From assembly GCA_003151395.1 (NCBI GenBank), contig PLXJ01000037.1, positions 15,377 through 76,344 of the forward strand: a stretch of 60,968 bases of DNA. The letters are read 5' to 3'. Every line of letters begins with the position of its first letter. The stretch's first letter is position 1. Shown one piece after another: positions 7,860 through 51,299 of this stretch. The notes below the pieces were generated by a model, which saw nothing but the letters and a program-made list of their open reading frames with translations, was not told the origin of the DNA and ran no database searches. This stretch comes from Actinomycetota bacterium (GTDB taxonomy: Bacteria > Actinomycetota > Actinomycetes > Nanopelagicales > Nanopelagicaceae). Position numbers and translations under genes: made by a program.

Positions 7860-7876
7860 AGCGTTTCTATCCTCAT

Positions 7877-9258: not shown

Positions 9259-9260
9259 TG

Positions 9261-11007: not shown

Positions 11008-11011
11008 CGCT

Positions 11012-11019: not shown

Positions 11020-11100
11020 TATTATTATTGAAATACTATCAGCCCTCAATCAATCCAGTCCGAACCCTTTTGTCTTCCTAAGGTTGATGTAGGCGTTCAA

Positions 11101-12641: not shown

Positions 12642-12643
12642 CG

Positions 12644-15525: not shown

Positions 15526-17161
15526 GGCGATAAAAATCAATGTGATCTGGTGGTAGTGGAGCCTTTCCTAAGATTAAATCCGCCGCTTTTTCGGCCACCA
15601 TCATGACTGGTGCGTATATATTTCCATTTGTTACATATGGAAATACGGATGCGTCACAAATTCGTAGCCCTTCAACGCCGTAGACTCTCATGGTTTGTGG
15701 ATCAACAACGGACATAGAATCAGTTCCCATTTTTGCTGTGCAAGAGGGGTGTAAGGCTGTTTCTCCATCCCTACGAACCCATTCCAATATTTCTTCATCA
15801 CTCGCAACAGTCGGACCAGGCGATGTCTCCCCAGCGTTGTATTCATTCATCGCCTTTTGTGTCAAAATATTTCGAGCAACCCTGACTGCCTCAACCCATT
15901 CGCGGCGATCTTGATCAGTGGATAAATAATTGAAACGTAGGGCTGGTTTCACCAAAGGATCTGTACTTTTAATTTTCACCGATCCGCGAGCATCTGAATA
16001 CATTGGACCCACGTGTACCTGATATCCATGGCCCCCGGATGGCGCAGTTCCATCGTATCGAATAGCAAGCGGCAAGAAATGAAACATTAAATTGGGGTAT
16101 TTGACGTCAGAGTTGCTACGAGTAAATCCTCCGGCTTCAAAATGATTCGTCGCTCCAGGCCCACTGCGGAAAAATAACCAGCGCGCACCAATAAAGGGTC
16201 TACGCCAAAGTTTGAGCATTGGCTGCATCGATACCGGCTTTTTACAGGCATATTGCACATAAACTTCGAGATGATCTTGGAGATTTTCTCCAACGCCAGG
16301 TAGATTCGCAATGACTTTTATTCCTAAGGCGGATAACTCTTTGGCGTTGCCAATTCCCGAGAGCTGCAGAATTTGAGGAGTATTTATTGCGCCACCACAG
16401 AGAATTATTTCTCGCGCTGAAATAACTTGCTTCTTGCCTTTCACAATTACTTCAACACCCGTTGCACGCTTTCCTTCAAAGATCACCTTAGTAACCATTG
16501 CACGGGTTTTTACAGTCAAATTCTTCCGCTTCATGGCTGGATGCAAATAGGCGCGGGCTGAGCTCAACCTCCGACCGCGACGCACGTTGCGATCGAACGC
16601 GGCAAACCCCTCTTGTCTGTAGCCGTTTACATCCGGGGTGCGCGGATAGCCCGCCTCTTCAGTGGCTTTGAAAAACGCGGCAAATAACGGACCATTAATT
16701 GGACCGCGTTCTAACTCTAAGGGTCCACTTCCTCCACGGAAAGGACTATTTGGATCAGCTATGCAATTCTCCATTTTTTTGAAATATGGCAAGCAATGTG
16801 CGTAATCCCAATTTTGCATTCCCGGATCTTTACTCCATCGTTCGAAATCAAGTGGATTCCCGCGCTGCCAGATCATTCCGTTTATGCTTCCTGACCCACC
16901 TAAGACTTTTCCGCGAGCGTGGTAAATTCGTCGGTTATTCATAAATGATTCTGGTTCAGATTCATATTTCCAGTCATAGTGTTTATTTCCTATTGGAAAT
17001 GCCAGCGCTGCGGGCATGTGAATAAAAACATCCCATTTGTAATCGGGTCGACCGGCTTCCAAAACCAAAACGTTATTATTTGAGTCAGCACTCAATCGAT
17101 TTGCTAACGAACTTCCAGCCGAGCCGCCACCGACTATCAAGTAATCATAGGTCGTGCTCAT
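15515..17161 (-). CDS. betA: choline dehydrogenase (GMC oxidoreductase)
   Basis: A 548-aa FAD enzyme oxidising choline to betaine aldehyde (and possibly on to betaine). The N-terminal dinucleotide fold is [17 protein letters not shown], followed by [14 protein letters not shown]. The GMC signature region is [19 protein letters not shown], the second signature is [16 protein letters not shown], and the catalytic His region is [13 protein letters not shown]. The ending [19 protein letters not shown] is family-typical. Similarity in the [10 protein letters not shown] stretch favours BetA over other GMC enzymes. It is downstream of proX with a stem-loop between. Electron transfer to a quinone is expected, and no partner other than the membrane pool is evident. 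Confidence 0.9.
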
Positions 17162-17262: not shown

Positions 17263-18216
17263 TTATTTACCCAACCATTGTTTTACAATTGCTGGGTGAG
17301 CAGTGATCCAGATTTTTGCCGCAGCATCGTCACTCAACTTGTCAACGGCGAGCGACTTTGCAACTGAGTTCTGATCAGCATTTGTCCAAGAGAAGTTCTT
17401 AAGCAAGGTTGCAGCCGGGGATCCTGAACTCATGAACTTTGCGCTGGCCACTTTATTCAGAGCATATGGTGGATAATCGCAGGCTACAGTCTTTGGATTA
17501 GTGTCACAACCAGTTGTCCACTTTGGAAGAGTTACGTGAACTAGCGGAACTTGAGCCAAGAACCACTGTGGCTCATAGAAGTAACCAATCATTGGCTTCT
17601 TCTGAGCTTGGGCGTTTCTAAATGAGGTGATGAGTGCGGCTTCACTTCCCGTATAGATAATTTTGAAATTCAATTTCAAATTTTTGACGATGGCAGCATC
17701 GTTGGTTACATATGAAGGATCACCATCGAGAAATGCACCCTGACTACCGGATTCGGAAGTCTTAAACAAACTTGCGTATTTGTTCAAGTTCTTCCAGTTA
17801 GTGATATCTGGATATTTAGCAACCAACCAAGGAACCACGTACCAACCGATGATGCCCTTGTTGCCTGTACTCCCTAGATCAACAGCAACTTTCTGCTTTG
17901 TGATGTACTTTGCCGCTAAATCTTCGTGACCCCAGTTTTCAAGAATCGCGTCAATCTGCCCTGTAGGAAATCCTTGCCAAGACACTTGCTCGCTCAAATT
18001 CTTTACTACAACCTTGCAACCAAGATTGTTCTTCATAATGTAGGAAACCACGGCCAAATCTGCTTCATATCCAACCCAAGCATTGTCGGCCAAATTAACA
18101 GTTCCGCACTTAGCAGCAGCCGCTTGCGCCGGAGCACCAGCGGAGAATGCAAATGAAATTGCGGTAGCTACGAACAGGAACACAGTTCCACGCCGGAACC
18201 GACTTGTCTTTAACAT
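17263..18216 (-). CDS. proX: glycine betaine/proline-type substrate-binding protein (OpuAC family)
   Basis: A 317-aa exported binding protein. The signal peptide spans residues 1 to about 33 (basic start, hydrophobic core, AQA sites). The mature part begins CGTVNLADNAWVGYEADLAV, an OpuAC/ProX opening with an aromatic residue of the kind that forms the quaternary-amine cage. Other aromatic sites are WGHEDL, GWYVVPW and GYFYEPQWFL. Extra cysteine-containing loops (TTGCDTNPKTVACDYPPYAL) are as in ProX-like proteins of actinobacteria. ATG 18216 has GGGGG seven bases upstream. Together with ProW and ProV it would form a betaine importer. Choline, proline betaine or carnitine are possible alternative ligands. 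Confidence 0.9.
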   Translation of the reverse strand: MLKTSRFRRGTVFLFVATAISFAFSAGAPAQAAAAKCGTVNLADNAWVGYEADLAVVSYIMKNNLGCKVVVKNLSEQVSWQGFPTGQIDAILENWGHEDLAAKYITKQKVAVDLGSTGNKGIIGWYVVPWLVAKYPDITNWKNLNKYASLFKTSESGSQGAFLDGDPSYVTNDAAIVKNLKLNFKIIYTGSEAALITSFRNAQAQKKPMIGYFYEPQWFLAQVPLVHVTLPKWTTGCDTNPKTVACDYPPYALNKVASAKFMSSGSPAATLLKNFSWTNADQNSVAKSLAVDKLSDDAAAKIWITAHPAIVKQWLGK

Positions 18217-18278
18217 ATAAAATCCCCCTGCCTCACGACCAAAGTCGTCTCAACCGCCAACCCCTTGATTAGCGGAAC

Positions 18279-20273
18279 TTACTTAGTGCGTTCGAGCGTA
18301 CTCCTGGCAGCGGCTGCCTGGGTGATTCTGTCCAATAAAATTCCCAATAGTACAATTGCTAATCCCGCCGCCAGTCCTTTGCCTGTTAGATTCAATTGAG
18401 TAAATCCTGCAACTACCAAATACCCCAAACCACCGGCTCCAACTAGGCCGCCTACGACCACCATCGCCAATACATAGATTATTCCTTGATTCGTTGAAAG
18501 TGCCAGGGCCCGCCTTGCACTTGGAAGCTGTACCTTAACTATCATCTGCCATTTGTTGGAACCAGCAGCAATACCAGCCTCTGTAATAGACGCTGGTACT
18601 CCGGCAATACCATCTGCCATCAACTTGATTGAAGCCGGCGCTGCATAAACAATTGCAGCCATAATTGCGGTAAATCTCGTCGCTCCAAAGAGGCCAAGAA
18701 ATGGAACAAGGTAAACAAAAGCAGGCAAAACTTGACCGGCGTCAAGCATTGGGCGCATTATTTGATCGGCCCGTTTGCTCCTACCGATCCATACTCCGAA
18801 AATAATCCCGATCGCGACTGTGGCTATGGCAGCCACAAGCACCGAGGCCAAAGTTGTCATCGTGTCCGACCACAAGCCTGTTCCAACGATTCCAAGTACG
18901 CAGACTGTCGAAATGAGCGCTAATTTTCTTCCGCCTAAAATCATCGCTAATAATACGAAAGCAAAACCGGTAATAAACCAAGGACTATTGGTTAATAGGT
19001 TCTGAATTGGATTTATCAGCCCATATGAGACGCCATTTGTAATGGAATTTGTTACGTTAACGAAGTGATTTTGGATCCAATTAACAATATCATCAGCGTA
19101 TCTGGCTATATCGCTTCCAATCACTCCTGTTCCTGGAAAGTTTCCAGCCCAGTTATAAATTCTTGAAATCAAAAGTGCGGCGATGGTAACGATTCCACCC
19201 GCCACTAAAATTTGGCGATGCCGCACACGGCTAACAAGATGAGAATTTTCTGCATCTACTTTTGAAGCTGCTGCAGTAGTTGTCCGATCCAATAGAACCG
19301 CCAAAATGACAATACCGAGTCCAGCTTGAAACGACTTTCCTATATCCAATGACTCCAGGGCGGTAACTACGACTTTACCCAAACCTGGAGCATCAATAAG
19401 AGCCGCAATTGTTACCATCGATAGCGCAGCCATAATCGTTTGATTGATTCCTACCACCATTGTGCGTTTGGCTTGTGGTAACTGGACTTTGCGCAAGGCT
19501 TGCATTCTTGTTGATCCCATCGAAACAGCCGCTTCCACGCTAGACCACGGAACTTCATGGAGAGCCACTGCCGTTATACGAAGCGCCGGCGGAATCGCAT
19601 AGACCATAGTTACTATCGTCGCGGATGCCGGTCCGATCAAAAAGAAGAGAGTTACAGGTGTGAGGTAAACGAAGGTTGGCATAACTTGAGCAAAGTCCAA
19701 AAATGGCGTTATTACCTTTTCAAATCGTGGAAATAGTCCCGCACAAATGCCGAGTGGAATGCCAATCAGTAAAGCCAGTACCACCGCAGCTAGAGTCAAT
19801 GCCAGGGTATCCATGGACTCTTGCCAAAAACCCAGAAGTCCCAATGAGACCAATCCGACAAAAACTAAAATAGCTACCCTAATATTGGCAACGGTGTACG
19901 CCACAAAACTTAATAGAACGACGATCCCTAACCAGCCAATCAGAGGTGAGGCGTTATTTCCGATGGATTGGCTAATTAAGTCCTGAATACCTGTTACAAA
20001 GGCGTTGATCGAATCGCGAATAACGTTTATAAAAAAGGTGAAGAATGGATTCGAATTTTGATTGTTTCCAATCCAATCACTCACATTATTTAACCAAGAT
20101 TGAAACCAGGTAAGACTCGATGTATCTAATGGGAGAGTTGCAATTCCGCGCATCAAGACCGCAAAAAATATGAAACCTGCGCTAAGGGCACCTAAGTAAA
20201 TTCCAACTTTGTATCTCTTTACAACGCTCGCTTTCAGCTCCTTCTCGGGTTTTGAAAGCATCGCTACGGACAT
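18279..20273 (-). CDS. proW: betaine ABC permease with two fused ProW-type domains
   Basis: At 664 aa this is about twice the length of a usual ProW. Two homologous permease units lie in tandem: residues about 1-330 with LTPVTLFFLIGPASATIVTM and an EAA loop (EAAVSMGSTRMQALRKVQLP), and about 345-664 with YLVPFLGLFGATRFTAIM and EAGIAAGSNKWQMIVKVQLP. Each unit has several hydrophobic helices. The importer could therefore work with one polypeptide instead of a homodimer. It starts one base before the ProV stop codon region ends (20273/20274) and lies 62 bp before proX. Such double permeases exist in other bacteria, so this is unusual rather than new. Confidence 0.9.
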   Translation of the reverse strand: MSVAMLSKPEKELKASVVKRYKVGIYLGALSAGFIFFAVLMRGIATLPLDTSSLTWFQSWLNNVSDWIGNNQNSNPFFTFFINVIRDSINAFVTGIQDLISQSIGNNASPLIGWLGIVVLLSFVAYTVANIRVAILVFVGLVSLGLLGFWQESMDTLALTLAAVVLALLIGIPLGICAGLFPRFEKVITPFLDFAQVMPTFVYLTPVTLFFLIGPASATIVTMVYAIPPALRITAVALHEVPWSSVEAAVSMGSTRMQALRKVQLPQAKRTMVVGINQTIMAALSMVTIAALIDAPGLGKVVVTALESLDIGKSFQAGLGIVILAVLLDRTTTAAASKVDAENSHLVSRVRHRQILVAGGIVTIAALLISRIYNWAGNFPGTGVIGSDIARYADDIVNWIQNHFVNVTNSITNGVSYGLINPIQNLLTNSPWFITGFAFVLLAMILGGRKLALISTVCVLGIVGTGLWSDTMTTLASVLVAAIATVAIGIIFGVWIGRSKRADQIMRPMLDAGQVLPAFVYLVPFLGLFGATRFTAIMAAIVYAAPASIKLMADGIAGVPASITEAGIAAGSNKWQMIVKVQLPSARRALALSTNQGIIYVLAMVVVGGLVGAGGLGYLVVAGFTQLNLTGKGLAAGLAIVLLGILLDRITQAAAARSTLERTK

Positions 20274-21314
20274 TTAAAACTCACTCCCTGACACAACGCT
20301 GAGCATGTCTTGAGCGGTAACCACTCCCAACAGATGTCCATTTTCCATCACTCGAATGGGGACCGAAGATTCGACAATCTGTCGCATTGAATTATGGACG
20401 GTTACCGTCGGTGGCAAAATAGGTCCGGTCAAAACTTCATTTAATTCAGGTTTCCGTGCAATCCAACGCAAAGTTAGTACTTGAGACTTAGGAAAATCCT
20501 GAACGAAATTTGCCACGTAATCATCAGCAGGCGCTGCAACCAGTTCCTCTGGAGTTCCGATTTGGACAATTGCTCCGTCACGCATAATTGCAATTCGATC
20601 TCCAAGTTTCACCGCTTCGGCCAGATCATGCGTGATAAAGACCATGGTCTTTCCAAGTTGATGATGAAGCCTAATGACCTCGGCTTGCATATCTCTCCGG
20701 ATGAGGGGATCTAAAGCGCTAAATGGCTCATCCAAAAATAGTACTTGCGGGTCCACTGCGAGTGCGCGAGCCAGCCCAACGCGTTGTTGCATTCCGCCAG
20801 ATAATTGCTCTGGATACGCCTGGCCATAGCCTTGCAGCCCCACCAATTCAATTACTTCATTGGCGCGGTGATGTCGTTCCTCTTTACTGACACCATTGAT
20901 CTCTAGGCTGTACGCGATGTTGTCAATGACTTTGCGATGTGGCAACAAGCCGAAGTGTTGGAAAACCATTGAGAATCGCGTCTTTCGTAATTCACGTAGT
21001 CGTTTCTCGTCAACTTTGAGAATATCTTCCCCTTGAAAAAAAATCTCGCCTTGAGTTGGCTCGATGAGCCGAGTCATACACCTAACTAAAGTTGATTTAC
21101 CAGATCCGGACAATCCCATGACAACGAAGACTTCACCTGGTGCTACGTCGAAAGAGACATCTCGAACTGCAATCGTATTGCCGGTCTTATTACGTAATTC
21201 TGATCGCGATAAATTGGCATCTGGGCTTCCAATTATTTGTGCGGGATTGGAACCGAATACTTTCCACACATGCCGAACTGAAATCATTGGAGCTTGGTTG
21301 TCCAAATTCGCCAC
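20274..21314 (-). CDS. proV: glycine betaine ABC transporter ATP-binding protein
   Basis: ATPase of 346 aa. Walker A is [12 protein letters not shown], the Q-loop [12 protein letters not shown], the signature [15 protein letters not shown], Walker [18 protein letters not shown], and the H-loop [11 protein letters not shown]. The N-terminal extension with a short insertion before [12 protein letters not shown] is typical of ProV/OpuAA. After about residue 265 a single CBS-like segment ([18 protein letters not shown]) remains, the element that in OpuA/ProV senses ionic strength. It lies 2 bp after the aldehyde dehydrogenase gene and abuts proW. Whether uptake is osmotically or catabolically controlled cannot be read, but the company of catabolic genes favours nutrition. 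Confidence 0.94.
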
Positions 21315-21316: not shown

Positions 21317-22795
21317 TTAATTTTTGTCAGCAAACCATCCTGATCTTGTTGGTGAATTGTTGACCCAAATGTGTTTAATTTCAAGGTATTCCTGTAACCC
21401 ATGTTCGCCTAACTCACGACCATTTCCAGAAGCTTTAAAACCGCCCCACTCTGCCTGTGGTTTATATGGACCGTAGTCATTGACCCAGACGGTGCCATGT
21501 CGCAATTCTTTTGAAACTCGCTCACATTTAGTCTGATCGCGGCTCCACACCGCGCCTGAAAGGCCATAAATTGTGTCGTTACCTAACTTGATGGCTTCAT
21601 CAATGGTGTCAAATACCTCAACGGTGAGAATTGGCCCAAATGACTCTTCTTGCACGCAATACATACTCGTATTGCAATCGTCTAATACTGTTGGGGGGAA
21701 ATACCAACCAGTTGATAATTTCTCTGTGGTACAACGCGTGCCCCCAACTAACAATTTTGCACCTTCAGAAATCCCCTTTGCCAAGTATTCTTCAACTTTT
21801 TTTAAGTGATTTTCACTGATCAATGGGCCGGTTTCTGCTGTCAGATCGGCTGGTCCACCTAATCGAATTTGTTTGGCCCGTCGAACAATCTCTTGTACTA
21901 CCTGATCGTGGATAGGTCGCTCCACAATTAACCTAGTCCCTGCTGAACAGACTTGCCCGGAATGCAAGAACGCTGCCGTAACCGCAAAATCAATCGCTAC
22001 ATCCAAATCGGCATCGGCAAAAATAATATTCGGATTTTTTCCGCCGAGTTCCAGGGCCACTCTTTTAACGGTTTCCGCTGCCTTGATAATTATTCGCTTG
22101 CCTGTGGGCAATCCGCCGGTAAAAGAGACAAAGTCCACTCTAGGATCGGTAGTTAGAGTGTCGCCAAATGCCGCTCCAGAGCCAGTAACTAAATTTGCTA
22201 CTCCTGCTGGAGCTCCAGCTTCTTCAATTAATTTAATTAAGTGGATGGCGGTCGAGGGGGTTAACTCACTTGGCTTTAAGATAAAAGAACAACCCGCTGC
22301 CAACGCAGGAGCTACCTTCCACGAAATTTGCAATAAGGGATAATTCCACGGTCCAATGAGGGAACAGACGCCGATAGGCTCGTAAGTGACTTTGCTTGTC
22401 ACATTTGGCAATCCACTATCCAGTACTCGATCGTGATGATCTAGGGCGAGTTTTGCAAAATGGCGGAAAGTGGCAGAAACATCGGCGACGTCGTACTTAG
22501 ATTCAATAATTCGCTTCCCAGTGTCGCCACTCTCAAGATTGGCGATAATTTCTATATCCCGCTCCAAGAGGAGGGCAATTTTTGTGAGCAACACACTTCG
22601 TTCTTTCCAACTCCACGAGCTAAACAAGCCACTATCGAAAGAGGTGCGCGCGGAGCTAATTGCGGCTAGCGCATCCGCTATTTTCCCATCCGAAACCGTT
22701 GCGACCAAAGTTCCATCGGCTGGGCTACGGATTTCCCGGGTAGCTCCATCGATCGCCGGACGCCACTTTCCATCGATATATATCGAACTTGTCAT
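21317..22795 (-). CDS. betB: betaine-aldehyde dehydrogenase (ALDH superfamily)
   Basis: A 492-aa NAD(P)-dependent aldehyde dehydrogenase. Catalytic residues are N151 (PWNYP), K174 (LKPSE), the general base E249 (LELGGKNP) and the nucleophile C283 ([11 protein letters not shown]). The [11 protein letters not shown] turn contacts the cofactor. The ending region [19 protein letters not shown] resembles betaine-aldehyde dehydrogenases. With BetA it makes glycine betaine from choline. It sits between the MttB-family gene and proV with gaps of only 8 and 2 bp, so it is co-transcribed with betaine import and demethylation. ALDH specificity is hard to fix from sequence; the context makes betaine aldehyde the best call. 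Confidence 0.88.
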
Positions 22796-22803: not shown

Positions 22804-24240
22804 CTAGTCAAGTTCGCTTTTACGCTTAGCGACAAAATCTTTCAAACCAGTCAATATCGCAGCATCCATCTCAGGTTGTTCATAATCCGCTAGCTTTTTC
22901 TTCCAAATCTCTTCCGCACGCATCCGAGTATCTCGCGCTCCTAGGCGGGTCCACCGCTCATAGTTATCACTGTTCGTTAGGAACGGTCGATAAAAACAAT
23001 CGCGGAATCGCTCCATGGTATGCGCTGCCCCCAAAAAGTGACCGCCATGGCCCACTTCTAGGTGAGCATCAAATGCGAGGGAGGACTCATTGAATTCAAG
23101 CGGGGTGAATTCAGCGATCAAACTCTGCAATATCTCCACGTCAACAATAAATTTGTCGTAAGAAGATACCAGGCCGCCTTCGAGCCATCCTGCGGTGTGC
23201 ATAACCCAGTTTGTTCCTGCCAGGAATGTAGGCATCATGGTCATCATTGTTTGATAAGCGGATTGAGCATCCACGGATTGCGATGAATTTAATCCGCCGC
23301 CGCCGCGGAAAGGCAAGTTAAAACTCCGTGCAATTTGACCCGTGCACAACAAACCAATTCCGGATTCTGGGGTACCGAACTGCGGTGAGCCAGATTGCAT
23401 ATCGATGTTAGAGAGAAAAGAACCAAAAACAATAGGACATCCTGGCCGAATTAATTGCGCTAATGCAATCGCTGAAAGCGCTTCGGCGATTTGTTGCGCC
23501 AAAGTTGCGGGAATCGTTACAGGACTCATAGCCCCCATTAACAAGAAAGGGGTGGTTACAACTGGTTGGCCAGCAAGCACATACTCGCGCATTGAATCTA
23601 ACATGCGATCATCCCAGCGGAGTGGTGAGTTGCAGTTCACGAGCGATATAAGAGCAGGTGTTTCTTCAATGGCTTGTCTTCCACCATGAATTATCTCCGC
23701 CATCGCAATTACATCGCGGGCGTTTTGGGCGGTTACGACATTTCCCATAAAGAATTTGTCAGTAAGCGTCGCAGCGGCAAATGCCATATCCAAATGTCTA
23801 CTGTCTAGCGATAAATCATTCGGTTCACATACGACTCCGCCGACGCTATCGATTGCATCAAAACTCTGTGCCAATTTACAAAAATTTTCGTAATCCGCAA
23901 AGGTGGCATCGCGGCGCGTTGAGCCTTCGAGAACAAATGGTGGGCCGTAAACGCCACCGAATACCATTGAATCGCCACCAATATGTACATTGCGCTTTGG
24001 ATTGCGAGCCCGAAGATTGAAATCCTTAGGCGCCTTTGCAACTTGCTTTAATATCCAATCTGGATCAAATTTAACGTTTTCACCTTCAACGCTCTGACCA
24101 GCTTCACGTAACATATCCACTGCCCATGGGCTAGCAAATTCGATCCCGATCTCCGAAACAATCCGGCGCCATCCCGTAGTGAGGGTTGCCATAGATTCCT
24201 GGCTCAAAATTTCATATCGTGGCATTCGGTTTTGAAACAC
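22804..24240 (-). CDS. mtgB: MttB-family methyltransferase without pyrrolysine, probable glycine betaine:corrinoid methyltransferase
   Basis: A 478-aa member of the trimethylamine methyltransferase (MttB) superfamily. Family segments include MPRYEILSQESM near the N-terminus, GGVYGPPFVLEGSTRRDA, MGNVVTAQNARDVIAMA, LVNCNSPLRWDDRML, FLLMGAMSPVTIPATLAQQI, and the C-terminal GHGGHFLGAAHTMERFRDCF. No in-frame amber codon interrupts the gene, so it is the non-pyrrolysine type, of which MtgB demethylates glycine betaine to dimethylglycine. The frame is open to 24501, across the divergent regulator. GTG 24240 is chosen because GGGGGAG lies about six bases upstream and relatives begin there. Betaine as substrate is inferred from the adjoining betaine genes; proline betaine, carnitine or trimethylamine are alternatives. 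Confidence 0.87.
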   Translation of the reverse strand: MFQNRMPRYEILSQESMATLTTGWRRIVSEIGIEFASPWAVDMLREAGQSVEGENVKFDPDWILKQVAKAPKDFNLRARNPKRNVHIGGDSMVFGGVYGPPFVLEGSTRRDATFADYENFCKLAQSFDAIDSVGGVVCEPNDLSLDSRHLDMAFAAATLTDKFFMGNVVTAQNARDVIAMAEIIHGGRQAIEETPALISLVNCNSPLRWDDRMLDSMREYVLAGQPVVTTPFLLMGAMSPVTIPATLAQQIAEALSAIALAQLIRPGCPIVFGSFLSNIDMQSGSPQFGTPESGIGLLCTGQIARSFNLPFRGGGGLNSSQSVDAQSAYQTMMTMMPTFLAGTNWVMHTAGWLEGGLVSSYDKFIVDVEILQSLIAEFTPLEFNESSLAFDAHLEVGHGGHFLGAAHTMERFRDCFYRPFLTNSDNYERWTRLGARDTRMRAEEIWKKKLADYEQPEMDAAILTGLKDFVAKRKSELD

Positions 24241-24297
24241 GCTTGCTCCCCCTTTGGAACCAACAAAACTTCGCTCTGTATGAGCCGATATTAACTT

Positions 24298-24315: not shown

Positions 24316-24358
24316 CAGGGTATTGCACTTGAACGTCGAAAAGAATACGCTCGATAAT

Positions 24359-24387
24359 GGAACAAGTGTTCCACATCGTGGAACACT
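24359..24387. promoter_or_regulatory. operator-like palindrome in front of iclR
   Basis: AGTGTTCCAC at 24365-24374 and GTGGAACACT at 24378-24387 form a perfect 10-bp inverted repeat around a 3-base spacer. The left half also pairs with GGAAC at 24359-24363, giving three alternating GGAAC/GTTCC half sites. It ends 40 bp before the iclR ATG. Position and symmetry fit the binding site of the IclR protein, which would then control itself and both divergent arms. Confidence 0.75.
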
Positions 24388-24427: not shown

Positions 24428-25213
24428 ATGGCGCAAGCGGCGCTTTCAGGCACGCAAGCTGTGGACCGGGCAACAGCCTTATTAACTCGCATAATCACCA
24501 CTACAACCCCGCCACATCTTCAGACACTGGCACGTGAGTTTGATATCCCAAAAAGCACCGCCTCTCGAATTATGAGCGCCTTAGAGCGACAAGGTTTTGT
24601 GAAGCGGGATCGAAATGGAGCATTTCTTCCAGGAGAGGTTTTAACTCAATTTGCTCGAGAGCAGAACCAGGATTCAGTTCTTGTAACAAGAATGCGTCCA
24701 ATCCTAGAAGATCTTGCACACCAAACTGGTGAAACTGCCAACTTGGCAATTACTGGAAATGGGTATTTAAAAATAATTGATCAGGTCGATAGTCTCTTCA
24801 TGCTCGGCACAACAAATTGGATTGGGAGAGATATTCCTTACCATTGCTCGGCGCTCGGAAAAGTTTTGCTCGCGTATGGTGCCATTCCAATCCCATCTGG
24901 CTCACTTCAAAAACTTACCTCAAAATCCATTATCACTCGTTCCCGACTTCTGACCGAGTTGGAATCTGTTCGGAAAATCGGGTATGCCATCATCACTGAT
25001 GAATTGGAAGAAGGACTGGCCGCAGTTTCAGCACCAGTACGCGAGAGTGATGGTCGTGTACTTGCAGCAATATCGATCTCTGGTCCGACAACAAGACTCT
25101 CAAATAAGGAACTAAATCGCATCGGCATGTTGATCGTCGAAAAGATCCACGAAGGAACTACATCGTCCCATAATCCACAACTTGTAAAGCACGGAAAGGC
25201 AGCCACCTCATGA
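24428..25213 (+). CDS. IclR-family transcription regulator
   Basis: A 261-aa regulator. The winged-helix DNA-binding part is at about residues 8-70 (AVDRATALLTRI, LAREFDIPKSTASRIMSALE, wing GFVKRDRNGAF). The effector domain follows, with GETANLAITGNGYLKIIDQV, the YHCSALGKVLLAYG family motif and EEGLAAVSAPVRESDGRVLA. It heads the corrinoid operon and is divergent from the methyltransferase gene, with a palindromic operator between. It overlaps the corrinoid protein gene as ATGA. I infer local control of methyl-group catabolism. The effector may be betaine or a demethylation product; the sequence does not say, nor whether it represses or activates. Confidence 0.93.
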   Translation: MAQAALSGTQAVDRATALLTRIITTTTPPHLQTLAREFDIPKSTASRIMSALERQGFVKRDRNGAFLPGEVLTQFAREQNQDSVLVTRMRPILEDLAHQTGETANLAITGNGYLKIIDQVDSLFMLGTTNWIGRDIPYHCSALGKVLLAYGAIPIPSGSLQKLTSKSIITRSRLLTELESVRKIGYAIITDELEEGLAAVSAPVRESDGRVLAAISISGPTTRLSNKELNRIGMLIVEKIHEGTTSSHNPQLVKHGKAATS

Positions 25214-25875
25214 CCCACGATGAAATTCTAAAAGCCTTATTTGATGAAACCTTAGTTGGTAACGCACCTGAAGTTCTGCGCCTCACTCAACTTGGAATAG
25301 AGGAGGGAATGACTCCGAGTTCAATTCTCTTCGACGCCCTTATTCCTTCGCTCGAAGAAGTCGGAGCACGATTTGAACGTGGTGATTTCTTTGTTCCAGA
25401 GATGTTGATTTCTGGAAAAGCGATGTCGGGAGCCCTCAATTTCCTTCGTCCCTTACTTGCACTTACTGGTGCACAAACCGTGGGGACTTTCCTGATGGGA
25501 ACGGTAAAAGGCGATGTACACGACATCGGCAAGAACTTGGTAAATATTATGCTGGAAGGTGCGGGATTTGAAGTCATTGATATCGGTGTTCAAGTCGCTC
25601 CCGAAAAATTTGTGGCGGCAATTCAAGAGCACAAACCGGATATCGTAGGAATGTCGGCCTTCCTCACCACGACGATGCCGATGTTCAAGGTCAATATTCA
25701 TGAAATTACCAAAGCTGGCTTACGCGACCAAGTAATTATTATGGTCGGTGGGGCGCCCGTAACTCAAGAATACGCGGATGTTGTCGGCGCAGATGGTTTT
25801 GCCGCCGATGCTTCAACCGCGGTACGCGTTGCTAAAGATTTAATTCAAAAGCGTCGCGCGCTGGTTACCTTCTGA
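25210..25875 (+). CDS. mtgC: corrinoid methyl-carrier protein (MtgC/MttC-like)
   Basis: A 221-aa two-domain protein: a helical cap (about residues 1-88, with GDFFVPEMLISGKAMSGAL) and a Rossmann-like B12 domain. The base-off cobalamin motif is DVHDIG at D102, H104 and G107, followed by the SxL element GMSAFLTTT and the GG element MVGGAPVT. It accepts the methyl group from the MttB homologue on cobalt and hands it to the methyl-THF-forming enzyme at 27182. The start overlaps iclR by 4 bp. Assignment to the methylamine/betaine-type corrinoid proteins is secure. The exact methyl donor follows from the neighbouring methyltransferase. Confidence 0.94.
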   Translation: MTHDEILKALFDETLVGNAPEVLRLTQLGIEEGMTPSSILFDALIPSLEEVGARFERGDFFVPEMLISGKAMSGALNFLRPLLALTGAQTVGTFLMGTVKGDVHDIGKNLVNIMLEGAGFEVIDIGVQVAPEKFVAAIQEHKPDIVGMSAFLTTTMPMFKVNIHEITKAGLRDQVIIMVGGAPVTQEYADVVGADGFAADASTAVRVAKDLIQKRRALVTF

Positions 25876-25884: not shown

Positions 25885-26268
25885 ATGCCAAAGTTACTCC
25901 CACTCATAGAAGACGCCATTAAGAAACCAATCTGGGGTTGTCAGATGTGTGGGCAGTGCGTTCTGCATTCAACGGGCATGGTCTGCCCAATGACCTGCCC
26001 AAAAACATTGCGCAATGGTCCATGTGGTGGCGTCCGTGAAAACGGTAACTGTGAAGTCAAACCAGAGATGCAATGTATTTGGGTTAAAGCATTCGAGCGT
26101 AAAGACAAATTACCCCTGCCTAATTCCTGGCGGGCCCACTACAACGATCTAAGACCTCCAGTGGATATGCAACTCAAAGGCACCTCTTCATGGTTAAATT
26201 TTTTAACAAAAAGAGATCAAAAAAGACCTGCAGGTTGGCCAATCCTCGCAGAAAAATCCGGTAAATGA
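25885..26268 (+). CDS. metV: MetV-like cysteine-rich partner of methylene-THF reductase
   Basis: A 127-aa protein with eight cysteines in the first half (C19, C22, C25, C34, C38, C47, C56, C64). Segments WGCQMCGQCVLHSTGMVCP and KTLRNGPCGGV are typical of the C-terminal methylene-THF reductase domain that exists as the separate subunit MetV in acetogens. It probably carries metal (zinc or iron-sulfur) and assembles with MetF. It overlaps metF by 4 bp, so equimolar production is likely. In acetogens MetVF reduces methylene-THF; here the surrounding genes suggest oxidation of methyl-THF. The direction is inferred, not shown. Confidence 0.88.
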   Translation: MPKLLPLIEDAIKKPIWGCQMCGQCVLHSTGMVCPMTCPKTLRNGPCGGVRENGNCEVKPEMQCIWVKAFERKDKLPLPNSWRAHYNDLRPPVDMQLKGTSSWLNFLTKRDQKRPAGWPILAEKSGK

Positions 26269-27164
26269 TGTCACGCGTTAGCGAAATTCTTGAAAATTCA
26301 AAAGAGCGATTATTCACTGTGGAATTTCCGGAAATTGATAGTGGAGGCATGGAGAGAATTGCGAAACATGTCGATCGCATCGGACCTTGGTTTGATGCCG
26401 CGAATTCTACGGATAACACCGCGGCGCATGCTCACGCTTCAAACACCGCAGTCGCCATTGCGATAAAAATTTATGGCATAGAGCCGATTCTTCAGATAGT
26501 TTGCCGCGACAAGAATAGGTTGGCGATTCAATCTGATTTAATGGGCGCGGCGCTTCATGGGATCGAAAATGTCGTTATGTTAACTGGGGATGATGTAAGC
26601 GCTGGAGATGAACCTGAAGCACGACGAGTATTCGATTTAGATGGACCGCAAGCGGTAGTGGTAGCCAATGTGCTTGCCACTGGCCAATATTTATCTGGTC
26701 GCAAAATTAACCCAGCCCCGAATTTCTATATTGGAGCCGTTGAAAATCCCGCAGCTCCTCCAGTGGATTATCGGATTCAACGAGCCTTAAAGAAGCACCG
26801 CGCCGGCGCTCGTTTTCTGCAATTACAGATCTGTTATCACCCAGATCGCCTCGAAAATTTCTGTCGGGGAGTTGCAGAACTCGCACCAAAACTCCACATA
26901 ATTCCAAGTGTTGTTCTTGTAAAGAATGAAAAATCCCTTAACTTTATGAATGACAAAGTTCCTGGAATTGATATTCCTCAAAGCACAATCGAGGGCGTTA
27001 AAAACAGCGCAGATCCGGGTGAATCAGCGTACCAATTGGTCCTCCAGCAATCGAAGCACGCTCTTTCCCTTCCTGGAGTCCGAGGACTTCACGTCATCGA
27101 TTTTCGTCGTGACAACTCCCTTGAACGGCTAATGCGCGAACTTGGCAGAACCCCAAAACTTTAA
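26265..27164 (+). CDS. metF: methylenetetrahydrofolate reductase MetF
   Basis: A 299-aa flavoprotein with a TIM barrel. The family core ILQIVCRDKNRLAIQSDLMG followed by NVVMLTGDDVSAGD is intact, and the FTVEFPEIDSGG opening contains the conserved Glu. Later segments are NFYIGAVENPAAPP and GARFLQLQICY. ATG ATG occurs at the start (26265 and 26268). It links methyl-THF and methylene-THF. In this operon it receives methyl-THF from the corrinoid-THF methyltransferase and would oxidise it, an uphill step with NAD that may need a different acceptor, possibly through MetV. Confidence 0.92.
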   Translation: MMSRVSEILENSKERLFTVEFPEIDSGGMERIAKHVDRIGPWFDAANSTDNTAAHAHASNTAVAIAIKIYGIEPILQIVCRDKNRLAIQSDLMGAALHGIENVVMLTGDDVSAGDEPEARRVFDLDGPQAVVVANVLATGQYLSGRKINPAPNFYIGAVENPAAPPVDYRIQRALKKHRAGARFLQLQICYHPDRLENFCRGVAELAPKLHIIPSVVLVKNEKSLNFMNDKVPGIDIPQSTIEGVKNSADPGESAYQLVLQQSKHALSLPGVRGLHVIDFRRDNSLERLMRELGRTPKL

Positions 27165-27181: not shown

Positions 27182-28078
27182 ATGGAGAAAATAATGCATA
27201 CCATCGTAAAGTCAGCAACCAGGTCTTTAACCATTGGCCACGATCAGCCGTTTTGCATTATTGGAGAGCGAATCAACCCAACAGGTCGAAAGAAGTTTCA
27301 AGAGCAACTTCGCGCAGGAGACCTTTCGGCCATTAATAAGGATGTTGCAGATCAAGTCGCTGGTGGTTGCAATATGCTCGATGTGAATATGGGCGTTCCC
27401 CTGACAGATGAACCCGTCCTTCTTGCAAAGGCAATCAAACTTATTCAAACGTTAACAGATCTGCCAATCTGTATTGATTCCTCCATCATTGAGGCGTTAC
27501 AAGCCGGCTTGGAGGCATACGAAGGCAAAGCGCTGGTTAATAGCGTCACTGGTGAAGATGAGAGAATGGAGATCGTACTCCCGTTGATAAAGAGACATGG
27601 CGCCGCAATCATTGCGCTGCCAAATGATGAAACGGGTATACCAGCCACGGTTGATGAGCGATTAATAATTACCGAAAAGATAATGCGTACCGTCGAAAAA
27701 CACGGGATTTCACTGGATAATTTGGTCATTGATCCTCTGGCAATGACAGTGGGCGCAGATCCCGAGGCTGTAAAAATCACTCTTGAAACTATTTATCAAA
27801 TCCGGCAACGATGGGGTTTGAATATGACATTAGGAGCTTCAAATATTTCCTTCGGTTTACCCCATCGCCATGCCCTCAATGCTGCCTTTCTTCCGGCCGC
27901 GATGAGCGCAGGATTGACTTCCGCTGTGATGGACGGCCGAACTGCACAAATAGTGGATGCCGTGCGGGCAGGCGATCTACTTTTAGGTTTGGATCCGTGG
28001 GGCGGAAATTGGATTTCAAAGTTCCGTGCAGCCCAATTGGCCCAGGCTGCCGCAACCGCGGAGGCACAACATCAGTAA
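27182..28078 (+). CDS. mtgA: methyl-THF:corrinoid methyltransferase (MtgA/AcsE-like, pterin-binding)
   Basis: A 298-aa pterin-binding TIM-barrel protein related to the MeTr domain of methionine synthase and AcsE. Visible are the opening IIGERINPTGRKKFQ, MLDVNMGVPLTDEP, ICIDSSIIEALQAGL, LVNSVTGEDERM, LVIDPLAMTVG, and MTLGASNISFGLPHR with the Asn that binds the pterin. Run in the betaine direction it moves the methyl group from cob(III)alamin-MtgC to THF. A second ATG at 27194 has GGAG six bases upstream and may be the real start. It follows metF and overlaps the next gene. Confidence 0.92.
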   Translation: MEKIMHTIVKSATRSLTIGHDQPFCIIGERINPTGRKKFQEQLRAGDLSAINKDVADQVAGGCNMLDVNMGVPLTDEPVLLAKAIKLIQTLTDLPICIDSSIIEALQAGLEAYEGKALVNSVTGEDERMEIVLPLIKRHGAAIIALPNDETGIPATVDERLIITEKIMRTVEKHGISLDNLVIDPLAMTVGADPEAVKITLETIYQIRQRWGLNMTLGASNISFGLPHRHALNAAFLPAAMSAGLTSAVMDGRTAQIVDAVRAGDLLLGLDPWGGNWISKFRAAQLAQAAATAEAQHQ

Positions 28079-29975
28079 TCACGAGCAAAAACAACCTTCA
28101 CTTTCTCACCATGACGGTACGGGGCGCATAAAACTCTCGTTTCGGACCCTTGAAAAAGATGGCACATCCGCGGGTGAAAAGGTCATATCAGTTCCTACGG
28201 GGGTTAGCGCATTTGATGCGGCTTCGTGGAATGGAATCGCTATTGATTCAACGTGCGGCGGATATGGAACCTGCAAAAAGTGCCGAATTAAAATTACGAC
28301 TGGTGAGACCGAACCTACAAAATTAGATTTCCGTGCCTTTTCAGCGGATGAAATTAGAGCCGGCTGGCGGTTGGCGTGCATGGTCCGTCCAGCAGCGAAT
28401 ATTTCTATAGATGTCCCACCACTCACCACAAGACCAAAGGCTGCAACTGTTGGGGTGGGGCGACAAGTAATATTACGTCCCGCAGTTCAAAAGCGATATG
28501 TTGAACTTAAACCGCCCACATTGCATGATCAACGGACCGACATAGTTCGACTTTTAGACGAGATCGACGATTTTGAAGCCACCGTTTCCCTCGCTGCGAT
28601 GCGCCATCTACCAAGAGTCCTGCGCAAGGCAGATTACAAAGTTACGGCGGTATTCATTGAACAAGAGCTCATCGATATTGAGCCGGGAGATACCACTTCA
28701 ATTAGATACGCCATTGCCTTCGATCTGGGGACGACCACGGTGGTAGCGACGCTACTAGATCTAAATACTGGTGCGCCCGTAGCAGTAGCTTCCATGCTCA
28801 ATAAGCAACAACCTTTTGGAGCCGATGTGATCACTCGCATCAGCACGACCATGCTTGATCCCGAGGGGCTAAATAAATTGAGAAGCCTCGCTCAGCAAAC
28901 GCTTTCTGAATTGACCGAGGAAGTTATCCTCGAATCTGGGATAGATAGAAACAATATTTATGAGGTTGCACTTGCGGGCAATGCCACCATGACCCAAATC
29001 GTCCTGGGAATTGATCCTGAACCCCTTGGAGTTGCTCCGTTCATCATGGCAAGTGCGGTGTATCCAAATGTCCGCGCCACTGAACTTGGATTGAATATTC
29101 ACCCGCTAGCCAAAGCCTTGATCATGCCTTCACTCGGGGCATACGTTGGAGGGGACATTATCGCTGGGGCTCTCGCCTCTGGAATGGATCGTGACAAGCG
29201 GCTCCGACTATTTATCGACGTTGGAACAAACTGTGAAATCATTCTCGGCGATGGTGAACGAATTCTTGCAACTGCCGCCCCTGCAGGTCCGGCCTTTGAA
29301 GCGGCCTCGATCAAGTGCGGTGTGCGAGCAGCCGCCGGCGCTATTGAGACAGTAAAAGTCAAAGATGGGCAATTGGTGATCGGGACCATCGAGGACACGC
29401 CTGCAATCGGAATCTGCGGTTCAGGATTGGTGGATGCCTGCGCGGTGCTAGTCGAGTTGGGTTTACTTGATAAATCAGGAAAATTTATTTCCGAAGAGTT
29501 GGCAAAAACTATCGCTCCACAACTATCGGATCGATTGACGATGTTAAATGGTGAACGGATCTTTGTCCTTACTTGGGGAAAAGAAATAGGAAATGCCAGT
29601 GATTCCGTCTTTCTCAGCCAGCGTGATGTTCGAGAATTGCAATTTGCGAAGGCGGCAATTGCTACTGGTTGGGCGTTACTAGTCGAAGAGTTTGGAATTA
29701 AAGAAGAGGATATTCAACAGGTTTTGCTAGCCGGTTCGTTTGGATCTTACTTGTCACCAGCATCAGCAATTAAGATCGGTTTAGTTCCAAAAATATCTGT
29801 GCTGCGCATCATCTCTGCCGGCAATGTTGCGGGAGAGGGAGCAAAGATGGTTCTCCTATCTGCACAGGAACGAAATGGTGCTGATGCGCTGCTTGAACAG
29901 ATTGATTATGTTGAACTTTCCGATCGTGCTGACTTTAATGATAAGTTCGTAGAGCGACTGGCATTCCCGAGTTAA
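28026..29975 (+). CDS. RamA-like ATP-dependent corrinoid-protein reactivase (2Fe-2S / ASKHA)
   Basis: A 649-aa protein from GTG 28026. A plant-type 2Fe-2S domain has cysteines C77, C83, C86 and C118 (CGGYGTCKKC, then LACMV). A linker of about 100 residues and an ASKHA ATPase-like half follow (AFDLGTTTVVATLLDL, ALAGNATMTQIVLG, LFIDVGTNCEIILG, GICGSGLVDACA, VLLAGSFGSYLSPASAIKIG). Such proteins reduce inactive cob(II)alamin back to cob(I)alamin in methyl-transfer systems. GTG 28026 has no Shine-Dalgarno. GGAGG six bases before an in-frame ATC at 28071 suggests a shorter form that overlaps the previous gene by only 8 bp. The iron-sulfur cluster type is family knowledge. Confidence 0.9.
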   Translation: MQPNWPRLPQPRRHNISNHEQKQPSLSHHDGTGRIKLSFRTLEKDGTSAGEKVISVPTGVSAFDAASWNGIAIDSTCGGYGTCKKCRIKITTGETEPTKLDFRAFSADEIRAGWRLACMVRPAANISIDVPPLTTRPKAATVGVGRQVILRPAVQKRYVELKPPTLHDQRTDIVRLLDEIDDFEATVSLAAMRHLPRVLRKADYKVTAVFIEQELIDIEPGDTTSIRYAIAFDLGTTTVVATLLDLNTGAPVAVASMLNKQQPFGADVITRISTTMLDPEGLNKLRSLAQQTLSELTEEVILESGIDRNNIYEVALAGNATMTQIVLGIDPEPLGVAPFIMASAVYPNVRATELGLNIHPLAKALIMPSLGAYVGGDIIAGALASGMDRDKRLRLFIDVGTNCEIILGDGERILATAAPAGPAFEAASIKCGVRAAAGAIETVKVKDGQLVIGTIEDTPAIGICGSGLVDACAVLVELGLLDKSGKFISEELAKTIAPQLSDRLTMLNGERIFVLTWGKEIGNASDSVFLSQRDVRELQFAKAAIATGWALLVEEFGIKEEDIQQVLLAGSFGSYLSPASAIKIGLVPKISVLRIISAGNVAGEGAKMVLLSAQERNGADALLEQIDYVELSDRADFNDKFVERLAFPS

Positions 29976-29976: not shown

Positions 29977-30561
29977 ATGAATATTGGAATTGTTGCATGC
30001 GGCGCCCTTGCATTTGAAATCGAAGCTATAGCAAAAGAAAACAATTTGGACCTAACTATTTACCCACTTCCGCCTCTCCTACACAATCACCCCGAAAAAA
30101 TTGCCGGCGAAGTTGACCGACTACTCTATGAAGTTAAGGGAAAGCACATCAAATGTGCCGTTGCCTACGCCGACTGCGGAACTTATGGCGCGTTGGATCT
30201 AGTTTTGGAAACACATAAAGTATCAAGGCTAACGGGCAACCATTGTTATGACGTTTTTGCCGGAAAAGCAACGCTCGAAAAACTCATGGCTGAAAGCGCC
30301 GGCACCTACTTTCTGACCGATTATTTGGTTAAATCATTTTATAGAAGCGTAATCGTCGAACTAGGCTTAGACCGCCGGCCTGATTTAAGGGATGATTATT
30401 TCAAGAATTATTCAAAGGTAATCTGGCTGTCACAAAGCCCAACTCCCGAACTAGAGATAGCTGCCGGGGCTGCCGCAGATTTACTACAGTTACCTTTGGA
30501 AGTACGAATAGTTGGAAAAACTGGTCTCGCCGATCAGATACTGACGCTAGTGAGCAGCTGA
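29977..30561 (+). CDS. DUF1638 protein, unknown function
   Basis: A 194-aa soluble protein with the conserved features I associate with DUF1638: opening GIVACGALAFEI, then CAVAYADCGTYGALDLVL, GNHCYDVFAG and YFLTDYLVKSF. Conserved Cys and His residues (C8, C70, H88, C89) could bind a metal or a reactive ligand. The family recurs, to my knowledge, beside MttB-type methyltransferases and corrinoid proteins in archaea and bacteria, but no activity is established. It starts one base after the reactivase stop and ends the plus-strand operon. Its last 15 bp overlap the opposing formate dehydrogenase gene. A role in corrinoid or methyl handling is a guess from context. Confidence 0.85.
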   Translation: MNIGIVACGALAFEIEAIAKENNLDLTIYPLPPLLHNHPEKIAGEVDRLLYEVKGKHIKCAVAYADCGTYGALDLVLETHKVSRLTGNHCYDVFAGKATLEKLMAESAGTYFLTDYLVKSFYRSVIVELGLDRRPDLRDDYFKNYSKVIWLSQSPTPELEIAAGAAADLLQLPLEVRIVGKTGLADQILTLVSS

Positions 30562-33537
30562 CTCAAGTTCTAGGGCTTTTAGAACCACGGGAGACAATAA
30601 AGTTTTATCAACATCTTCACGCAGTCGGCGACGCATCACGGGGGTCCAGAATTGAACAATGTGGTGCGCTACTTCAATTTCAGGGGCTCCATTCGATGGA
30701 ATATTCGCTGCTATCTGATTGGCCATTCGAATAATGCCGGAAAGTTGTAAATCTTTATCTAAATCGTGTTCGTGAATTGCTCCAGGTCCCTTGGCGCTGG
30801 GACTCACTTCAACCGCAGTAACTTTGTACTCGGGACAGTTAGTCGCCCAATCGGAATATTCAGTGGTAATTACATTTGCGCCACTTTCAGGGAAATGGAA
30901 GGTTGTGTAAACAACCCCAGCCGGAACTTCATCCGTAATGCGCGCCCGCATGATTGTGTCGCCAACTCGACTAGCAAGTTTTACCCAGGTTCCATCTCTG
31001 ATTCCACGCAATTCGGCATCCGCTTCGTGAATGTCGAGCGTATCTTCTGGGTGCCAAATGAGGTTTGGCGTACGTCGTGTTTGAGCGCCAACGTTATATT
31101 GACTCAGAACTCTCCCGGTAGTGAGCAAAAGTGGATACTTTCTATTGGCTTTTTCTTCGGTCGCGACATAAGGAGTCAACATAAATCTCCCTTCACCGCG
31201 AACAAAACTGTTCATGTGCATCGTGGGAGTTCCCTCAGGCGCACTTGCATTAACCGGCCACTGCATACTGCCAACTTCATCCAGCTTCGCAAAGGTCACG
31301 CCACTAAAGGTGGGGGTTACAGCCGCTATCTCATCCATGATTGCAGCACCATTTTGATAACTCATTGAGTAGCCCATCGCCGTTGCTAAATCGCAGGTGA
31401 CCTCATATTCGCTTTTACCGGTTTTACTTAGCATCACAGGTCGAACTCGATTTATCCGACGCTCGGCATTTGTAAATGTTCCGTCTTTTTCTAAAAATGA
31501 AGTGCCAGGCAGAAAAACATGGGCGAATTTGGAGGTTTCATTTAAGAAAAGATCTTGAACAATGACCATCTCCATAGCGCGCAGCGCAGCATGCACGTGG
31601 ACCGTATTCGGATCGGATTGAGCAATATCTTCTCCCTGAATATATAGCCCTTTAAATTCACCGGCGAGGGCCGCATCAAACATATTCGGGATTCGAAGGC
31701 CGGGTTCGGTTTGGAGAGTTACACCCCATTTTTTATCGAAAATTCCTCTGGCGTCACTGTCTGATATGTGACGGTAACCTGACAATTCATGAGGGAAGGA
31801 GCCCATATCGCATGAACCCTGAACGTTGTTCTGCCCGCGAAGTGGATTTACTCCCACTCCTTTACGGCCGATATTTCCGGTCGCCATGGCAAGGTTAGCG
31901 ATTCCCATAACCATTGTTGAACCCTGTGAGTGTTCAGTAACGCCTAAACCGTAGTAGATAGCGCCGTTTTTTGCCCCCGCATAGAGCCGTGCTGCCTTGC
32001 GAATATCTTCTGCTGGAATTCGACTTACCCCCTCAAGGGCTTCTGGACTATTTTCGGGCAATCGAATAAACGTTTCCCATTCGGTAAAAGAATCCAGATC
32101 GCATCTAGAATTTATAAAATCTCGATCCATTAAGCCCTCTGTCGCAATAACGTGCGCTAGAGCATTTATTACCGCAACATTGCTCCCCGGCATTAATTGT
32201 AAATGATGGCTTGCAGCAACATGAGGTGTCCGGACCAATGGAATTGACCTTGGATCAACAACTATGAGCGAAGCACCCTTTCGAAGTGCCTTCTTCATTC
32301 TCGATGCAAAAACCGGATGAGCAGCGGTTGGATTGGCACCAATCAGCATGATCACATCGGCATGTTCAACGGACTCAAAGTCCTGAGTACCTGCAGAGGT
32401 ACCAAAAGTTTGCTTTAAACCATACCCGGTTGGTGAGTGGCAGACCCGAGCACACGTGTCAATATTATTATTACCAAAGGCTGCCCGCACCATTTTTGTG
32501 ACCACAAATACTTCTTCATTTGTACACCTTGAAGAAGAAATACCTCCGATGGAATTTAAACCTAGTTCGGCCTGGATCCGTTTTAAACCACTCGCGGCAA
32601 AATCAATTGCCTCTTCCCAGGAGACTTTCTGCCATTCATCCGAAATACTCTTTCTAATCATCGGCGTTGTAATTCGATCTTCGTGGGTTGCGTATCCCCA
32701 AGCAAAACGCCCCTTCACGCAGGAATGGCCTTCGTTTGCGCCACCGTTCTTAAGAGGCACCATGCGCACGAGCTCATCACCCTTTAATTCAGCTTTAAAC
32801 GAACAACCGACGCCGCAATAAGCGCAAGTAGTTACGACCGAACGGGTGGGGGTTCCAATTGTAAGAAGTGTCTTTTCGGTGAGCGCTCCCGTCGGGCAGG
32901 CCTGAACACAAGCACCACATGAAACACACTCTGAATCAATAAAAGATGTCCCAGAAGAGGAGACGCGCGCTTCAAAGCCTCTATTTTCAATCGTTAACGC
33001 AAAAGTTCCCTGAACTTCATCGCACGCCCGAACGCACCGATTGCAAACAATGCATTCGGTGGAGTCGAAGGTAAAGTAAGGGTTCGACTCATCTTTCGGT
33101 AGCTCTAAATGAGTTCTGCCCGAATACCTAATCTCTTTAAGTCCAACGGTTTCTGCCATCGCGTGCATTTTGCATGCATCTCCGACTGCACATTGCTCCG
33201 GATGATCGGACATGTAAAGCTCCATCACGCCTTGGCGCAAACGCGCTAATTTCTCGGACTCCGTGGCAATTTTCATTCCATCGGCTACCGGAGTAGTACA
33301 AGAGGAAGGTGTGCCATTGCGACCATCTATTTGAACAACACATAGCCGACAGGAGCCAAAAGCCTTTAGTGAATCAGTCGCACAAAGTTTTGGAACCGTA
33401 ATTCCAGCGATAGCCGCGGCTCGCATAATGGAGGTGCCTGCAGGAACTTCAACGCTTATGCCATCTATCACCACAGTGACATGGCTAGTCTCCTTACTTG
33501 GTGGCGTACCAAAATCTGGTTCAATTAAAAGCGTCAT
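30547..33537 (-). CDS. fdsA: NAD-type formate dehydrogenase alpha subunit with fused FdsD-like C-terminus
   Basis: A 996-aa molybdenum enzyme. Domains in order: 2Fe-2S (C52, C63, C66, C80); His-Cys3 ferredoxin region (112-135); two 4Fe-4S motifs (C162/165/168/172 and C204/207/210/214); the catalytic domain's own 4Fe-4S (C238, C241, C245, C273); and the bis-MGD domain with active-site C366 in RVCHSPT, cysteine rather than selenocysteine. Residues about 926-996 (GIIRMANQIAANIP, then HHIVQFWTPVMRRRL) look like the small FdsD subunit, normally a separate gene, fused here. It oxidises formate to CO2 and passes electrons by FdsG/FdsB to NAD. It overlaps fdsB by 4 bp. Confidence 0.94.
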   Translation of the reverse strand: MTLLIEPDFGTPPSKETSHVTVVIDGISVEVPAGTSIMRAAAIAGITVPKLCATDSLKAFGSCRLCVVQIDGRNGTPSSCTTPVADGMKIATESEKLARLRQGVMELYMSDHPEQCAVGDACKMHAMAETVGLKEIRYSGRTHLELPKDESNPYFTFDSTECIVCNRCVRACDEVQGTFALTIENRGFEARVSSSGTSFIDSECVSCGACVQACPTGALTEKTLLTIGTPTRSVVTTCAYCGVGCSFKAELKGDELVRMVPLKNGGANEGHSCVKGRFAWGYATHEDRITTPMIRKSISDEWQKVSWEEAIDFAASGLKRIQAELGLNSIGGISSSRCTNEEVFVVTKMVRAAFGNNNIDTCARVCHSPTGYGLKQTFGTSAGTQDFESVEHADVIMLIGANPTAAHPVFASRMKKALRKGASLIVVDPRSIPLVRTPHVAASHHLQLMPGSNVAVINALAHVIATEGLMDRDFINSRCDLDSFTEWETFIRLPENSPEALEGVSRIPAEDIRKAARLYAGAKNGAIYYGLGVTEHSQGSTMVMGIANLAMATGNIGRKGVGVNPLRGQNNVQGSCDMGSFPHELSGYRHISDSDARGIFDKKWGVTLQTEPGLRIPNMFDAALAGEFKGLYIQGEDIAQSDPNTVHVHAALRAMEMVIVQDLFLNETSKFAHVFLPGTSFLEKDGTFTNAERRINRVRPVMLSKTGKSEYEVTCDLATAMGYSMSYQNGAAIMDEIAAVTPTFSGVTFAKLDEVGSMQWPVNASAPEGTPTMHMNSFVRGEGRFMLTPYVATEEKANRKYPLLLTTGRVLSQYNVGAQTRRTPNLIWHPEDTLDIHEADAELRGIRDGTWVKLASRVGDTIMRARITDEVPAGVVYTTFHFPESGANVITTEYSDWATNCPEYKVTAVEVSPSAKGPGAIHEHDLDKDLQLSGIIRMANQIAANIPSNGAPEIEVAHHIVQFWTPVMRRRLREDVDKTLLSPVVLKALELESAAH

Positions 33538-51273: not shown

Positions 51274-51299
51274 GTTGGTTTCCTTTTTTTTAAGTGTAT

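Follow-up and report, generated by a model that had tools for sequence, protein, structure and literature searches.

The gene at positions 22804-24240 (minus strand) belongs to a freshwater acI actinobacterium and most probably encodes MtgB, the methyltransferase that acts first in corrinoid-dependent demethylation of glycine betaine; we assign this reading a probability of about 85%. The gene lies in a window of 60,968 nt, by which we mean the whole stretch of DNA analysed (Actinomycetota bacterium GCA_003151395.1, contig PLXJ01000037.1, positions 15,377-76,344, forward strand). The Pfam MTTB match, the predicted fold and the conserved start identify it as an mtgB-like gene for a non-pyrrolysine quaternary-amine:corrinoid methyltransferase of the MttB superfamily. 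The best relatives of its product are 87-96% identical proteins of uncultured actinobacteria, one of them from a Candidatus Planktophila genome (Nanopelagicaceae), and the source genome is a member of the acI lineage of fresh waters (Nanopelagicales), whose actinobacteria rank among the most abundant bacteria of lakes. The kind of enzyme and its pathway are known, and the protein is a member of the aerobic MtgBCD kind; what appears not to have been described before is its presence in the acI lineage, as our literature search, with subscription papers mostly outside its coverage, found no acI paper describing this pathway.

Reading frame, start and divergent promoter

The gene has 479 codons including the terminal TAG (478 sense codons from GTG 24240) and contains no internal TAG, TAA or TGA. 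The first-pass annotation had held that no amber codon interrupts it; indeed, the sole TAG is the stop, which rules out pyrrolysine or readthrough. Pfam MTTB (PF06253) covers the full length of the protein with 613.8 bits against a curated cut-off of 25, and a search of the 1.85-Mb genome (93.6% complete) turned up no second MTTB gene. The arrangement of the neighbours is likewise as first annotated: the stop lies 8 bp before the betB ATG (22795), and the gene is divergent from its corrinoid partner mtgC, which sits on the plus strand behind an IclR regulator gene.

The start had been moved to GTG 24240, and this placement stands. A Shine-Dalgarno sequence, GGGGGAG (24246-24252, minus strand), precedes it by 5 nt, and most orthologues have a purine-rich site there too. 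Of 22 orthologues from the order, 19 carry a GTG or ATG in the position of GTG 24240, and the remaining three have a GTG that is one codon further upstream. Upstream of the start, the orthologue frames stay open for 4 to 107 codons, in three species for only 4-6. The long reading frame to 24501 crosses the regulator start, as had been stated, and shares 74 bp with the 5' end of the IclR gene; a conserved IclR-type operator occupies part of the region that it would translate, which argues against it, and on this palindrome inside the would-be extension together with the orthologue starts we rejected it. Since synonymous sites are saturated, we dropped the dN/dS ratio and quote pN alone, which is ~0.03 against the closest relatives. 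Judged from these sequence comparisons, the gene is intact, under strong purifying selection and not a chance reading frame.

The divergent promoter contains the palindrome AGTGTTCCAC-GAT-GTGGAACACT (24365-24387), with perfect 10-bp arms, followed by a third conserved half-site, GTTCCA (24358-24363). The operator half-sites are kept in the window and 22 orthologues, with a mean column conservation of 0.83, while the remainder of the leader, at 0.28, has drifted. The IclR-family regulator gene itself (24428-25213, plus strand; Pfam IclR_C, HTH_IclR) is adjacent in acI loci. The palindrome can be read as the operator of this adjacent protein, which likely controls both divergent operons. Without mismatch, the 17-bp operator pattern has only two occurrences genome-wide; the other perfect GTTCCA-N5-TGGAAC, at 25340-25356 of contig 14, is a possible second IclR target. 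No riboswitch in the window matched Rfam at the gathering threshold.

Fold, predicted betaine pocket and phylogeny

The AlphaFold2 model of the protein has a mean pLDDT of 92.5. Among PDB structures, it matches 4yyc with a Z score of 61.5 (rmsd 1.3), 2qne with 61.0, 9yce with 60.9 and MttB of Methanosarcina barkeri (7xcl) with 51.4. The entries 2qne and 9yce are Desulfitobacterium hafniense MtgB, which is proven on glycine betaine, while 4yyc is 100% identical to a Sinorhizobium meliloti protein over 476 aligned residues; the predicted fold therefore resembles both almost equally (Z about 61-61.5). The S. meliloti gene is flanked by genes for a cobalamin-binding protein, DUF1638, MetV, MetF, a methyl-THF:cobalamin methyltransferase, an ASKHA protein and bmt, a gene content from which we take 4yyc to be, very probably, MtgB from the S. 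meliloti locus that PMC12478193 discusses.

Docking of betaine in D. hafniense MtgB placed residues Y94, N199, R309 and H345 and the aromatic F353 at the ligand (PMC6855144). Our protein keeps the first four as Y98, N202, R312 and H348, whereas the MttB residues at these sites are F, C, Y and Y. In place of F353 it has Gly356, the local motif being ILQYF in D. hafniense MtgB and WLEGG here; a nearby tryptophan, Trp352, is present in every locus sequence compared. The modelled structure and the pocket residues favour MtgB over MttB.

A trimethylamine methyltransferase or a generic methylamine enzyme would be suggested by the family name MTTB only, and we give this reading next to no chance. The fold of M. 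barkeri MttB is similar at 22% identity, but MttB needs pyrrolysine and its pocket residues are unlike those found here. Specifically, codon 317 (TTA, Leu; 23290-23292, minus strand) stands at the position of Pyl334 in the HMMER alignment to 7xcl, and a histidine stands where MttB has Tyr364. Furthermore, the protein scores 250.7 bits against TIGR02369, the MttB trimethylamine equivalog model, with a cut-off of 525, so that it carries neither of the two marks of MttB proper, a score over that cut-off and pyrrolysine at 334. The earlier statement that this is no true trimethylamine enzyme is borne out.

In a phylogenetic tree, built quickly, with a very long MttB branch and with MtpB, MtcB, MtyB and R. 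pomeroyi MtgB1/2 left out, the protein groups with other acI proteins (100% SH-aLRT) inside an Actinomycetota group, which two Chloroflexota proteins join at 80%. Most members of a second group (89%), which includes 4yyc, are proteobacterial, and D. hafniense MtgB and MttB fall outside both groups (99%). On this sequence evidence the protein is MtgB-like, yet no member of the narrow D. hafniense MtgB branch; its place is beside the clade of 4yyc. The MtgB-like reading of the first-pass annotation thus gains support from the fold, the four pocket residues and the gene context, with the refinement that on the tree the protein stands apart from D. hafniense MtgB, in a separate clade with the group of the S. 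meliloti protein.

Two divergent operons, their neighbours and their distribution

The plus-strand operon opens with iclR. The mtgC-like corrinoid protein encoded next (25210-25875) has the Pfam domains B12-binding and B12-binding_2 and a DxHxxG cobalamin motif (DVHDIGKN); its best NCBIfam model is MtgC, at 198.8 bits below the cut-off of 370. There follow a metV-like gene (DUF5981; 25885-26268; PF12225, 90.9 bits) for a MetF partner, a metF-like methylene-THF reductase gene (26265-27164; Pfam MTHFR), whose product is expected to run in the oxidative direction, and an mtgA/mtgD-like methylcorrinoid:THF methyltransferase gene (27182-28078; NF005719, 306 bits against a cut-off of 259). The operon continues with a RACo/RamA-type corrinoid reductive activase (28026-29975; Pfam RACo_C_ter, Raco_middle, RACo_linker, Fer2), the true start of which is probably downstream of 28026, and a DUF1638 protein (29977-30561; PF07796). 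The set that marks aerobic MtgBCD systems, namely MtgC, an MtgD-like pterin protein, an activase, DUF1638 and metF, is co-located here, and DUF1638 is a frequent companion of that set, a role also put forward in PMC12478193.

The minus-strand operon runs in the order mtgB, betB, choline/betaine ABC transporter, betA and fdhD. The best NCBIfam match of the betB product (21317-22795), a betaine-aldehyde dehydrogenase, is BADH, at 544.6 bits below the cut-off of 668.6. The transporter genes (17263-21314) encode an ATPase, a fused permease and a binding protein (OpuAC), with TIGR01186 at 362.5 bits and the choline permease model TIGR03416 at 389.8, each over its cut-off. The betA product (15515-17161) matches choline dehydrogenase TIGR01810 at 852.6 bits, over the cut-off of 732.1. 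The segment 12644-15540 (minus strand) combines fdhD (FdhD models) with a membrane Fe-S oxidoreductase (CCG and Fer4 domains) that presumably resembles DgcB. Beside fdhD, at 5492-12755 (minus strand), lie reading frames that by eye resemble molybdenum-cofactor biosynthesis and molybdate transport genes, as if serving formate dehydrogenase.

Further genes for one-carbon and dimethylglycine oxidation lie on the other side of the plus-strand operon. NAD-type formate dehydrogenase subunits and a formate-THF ligase are encoded at 30547-37173 (minus strand; TIGR01591 885 and NF010030 898 bits, both over cut-off; Complex1_51K, 2Fe-2S_thioredx), and an electron-transfer flavoprotein pair with a dimethylglycine/sarcosine-dehydrogenase-GcvT fusion at 37176-41406 (minus strand; ETF domains; DAO, FAO_M, GCV_T). 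A second such fusion is found at 45149-47596 (plus strand; DAO, FAO_M, GCV_T, GCV_T_C), and an MtgE/Bhmt-like homocysteine methyltransferase at 43306-44187 (plus strand; Pfam S-methyl_trans). A gene resembling choline/ethanolamine kinases (44218-45126, minus strand) sits between these last two. Downstream of the choline cluster, at 49819-53328 (minus strand), reading frames look by eye like methylcitrate-cycle genes (2-methylcitrate dehydratase, citrate/methylcitrate synthase and methylisocitrate lyase).

The order fdh, mtgC, iclR, mtgB, betB, transporter, betA is repeated in long acI loci. In the order Nanopelagicales, mtgB occurs in 44 of 151 genomes, about a third of those sampled. All 44 carry betA (40 complete and over cut-off, 4 as fragments), whereas betA over the cut-off is found in none of the 107 genomes without mtgB; FAO_M dehydrogenases occur in 44/44 genomes with mtgB and in 19/107 without it. 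As the genomes are related and the genes linked, Fisher P values for these co-occurrences are not independent tests.

The S. meliloti mtgBCD locus offers a close parallel in parts, sharing MtgB, MtgC, DUF1638, MetV, MetF, the pterin methyltransferase, an ASKHA activase and bmt/MtgE, with mtgB again divergent from mtgC. Its MtgB is 44% identical, however, and the other parts 29-49%, and the acI cluster has an IclR gene between mtgB and mtgC and adds BetA, BetB, the choline transporter and formate dehydrogenase. D. hafniense MtgB, likewise a non-pyrrolysine member of the superfamily with Z about 61 and the four docked pocket residues in common, differs in its 40% identity and separate branch and comes from an anaerobe. 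The MtgBCDE system of Ruegeria pomeroyi (PMC12478193), compared by module types, has a RamA-like activase, DUF1638, MetF2 and C1 oxidation via THF in common with the acI system; the latter differs in that its genes form one cluster and its genome encodes MetH as well.

A proposed choline-to-glycine route and its alternatives

The sequences, fold, pocket residues, synteny and conserved operator described above are observed, and from them we infer the substrate, the direction of flow and the regulation in this organism. By far the simplest substrate, given the gene context, is glycine betaine: BetA and BetB of the same operon would make it, and enzymes of the dimethylglycine/sarcosine-dehydrogenase type for its product lie nearby. 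The cluster is a plausible route from choline to glycine plus CO2. Once imported, choline would be oxidised by BetA and BetB to glycine betaine, from which MtgB would move one methyl to the cob(I)alamin of MtgC, with dimethylglycine as the product; as the quaternary nitrogen is already activated, pyrrolysine would not be needed. The MtgA/MtgD-like protein would pass the methyl to tetrahydrofolate, and methyl-THF would be oxidised to CO2 via MetF/MetV, formate-THF ligase and formate dehydrogenase. Dimethylglycine would be converted to glycine through the two dehydrogenase-GcvT fusions and the electron-transfer flavoprotein. The RACo-type protein and DUF1638 would keep the corrinoid reduced, and binding of the IclR regulator in the shared promoter region would control both divergent operons. 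R. pomeroyi mutants in mtgC and mtgD do not grow on betaine (PMC12478193), which supports the same roles in the acI cluster; for the aerobic clade, the MtgB role rests on proteomics and these mutants, not on purified MtgB (PMC12478193).

Several points count against MtgB: the protein lies outside the proven enzyme on the tree at 40% identity, F353 has become Gly356, and MtgC scores below curated cut-offs. Another quaternary amine as the main substrate, be it proline betaine, carnitine, gamma-butyrobetaine or choline itself, is nevertheless unlikely. Each of these is the substrate of some member of the MttB superfamily (PMC8604678, PMC12155760), the ABC transporter models span choline, betaine and proline, and the lost residue is one of the docked aromatics. 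Against this, glycine betaine is what BetA and BetB of the same operon produce, two dehydrogenases of the dimethylglycine-using type lie nearby, betA accompanies mtgB in every one of the 44 genomes, and carnitine or proline betaine breakdown genes were not recognised among the genes examined.

We regard as highly improbable that betaine is demethylated instead by the Bhmt-like protein, with direct transfer to homocysteine, and that MtgB serves something else. The best NCBIfam match of the Bhmt-like protein is indeed betaine-homocysteine methyltransferase, but at 284 bits it stays below the cut-off of 338; moreover, its gene lies outside the mtgB operon, and it is 42% identical to S. meliloti bmt, which has been reassigned to MtgE for want of betaine-binding residues (PMC12478193). 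The oxygenase route for betaine was rejected, as a search for the Rieske-type family to which GbcA belongs found no member in the genome, a draft in which absences are weak evidence. The aerobic MtgBCD system doubles as methionine synthase by way of MtgE (PMC12478193). Here the genome with the MtgE/Bhmt-like gene encodes a long MetH-type protein too, and methionine synthesis may be shared or divided between them; MetE was not found, subject to the same caveat of a draft assembly.

The MtgB reading bears on the B12 economy of the lineage. According to one metabolic model, acI-B would degrade glycine betaine and be unable to make B12, apparently with no enzyme named for the degradation (PMC5574706). 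CobS was not found in our genome, and although absence from a draft says little, this agrees with the B12 auxotrophy published for acI. We lean towards the view that part of the genome-streamlined, B12-auxotrophic acI lineage has a complete oxygen-independent route from choline to glycine plus CO2, in which an IclR-controlled corrinoid demethylase from a distinct actinobacterial/chloroflexal MtgB clade takes part; for some of the commonest bacteria of lakes, betaine use would then depend on B12 made by other organisms. If true, the cluster would provide a concrete mechanism for betaine degradation in acI, extend the marine MtgBCD pathway to fresh water, and link choline and betaine turnover in lakes to B12 supply.
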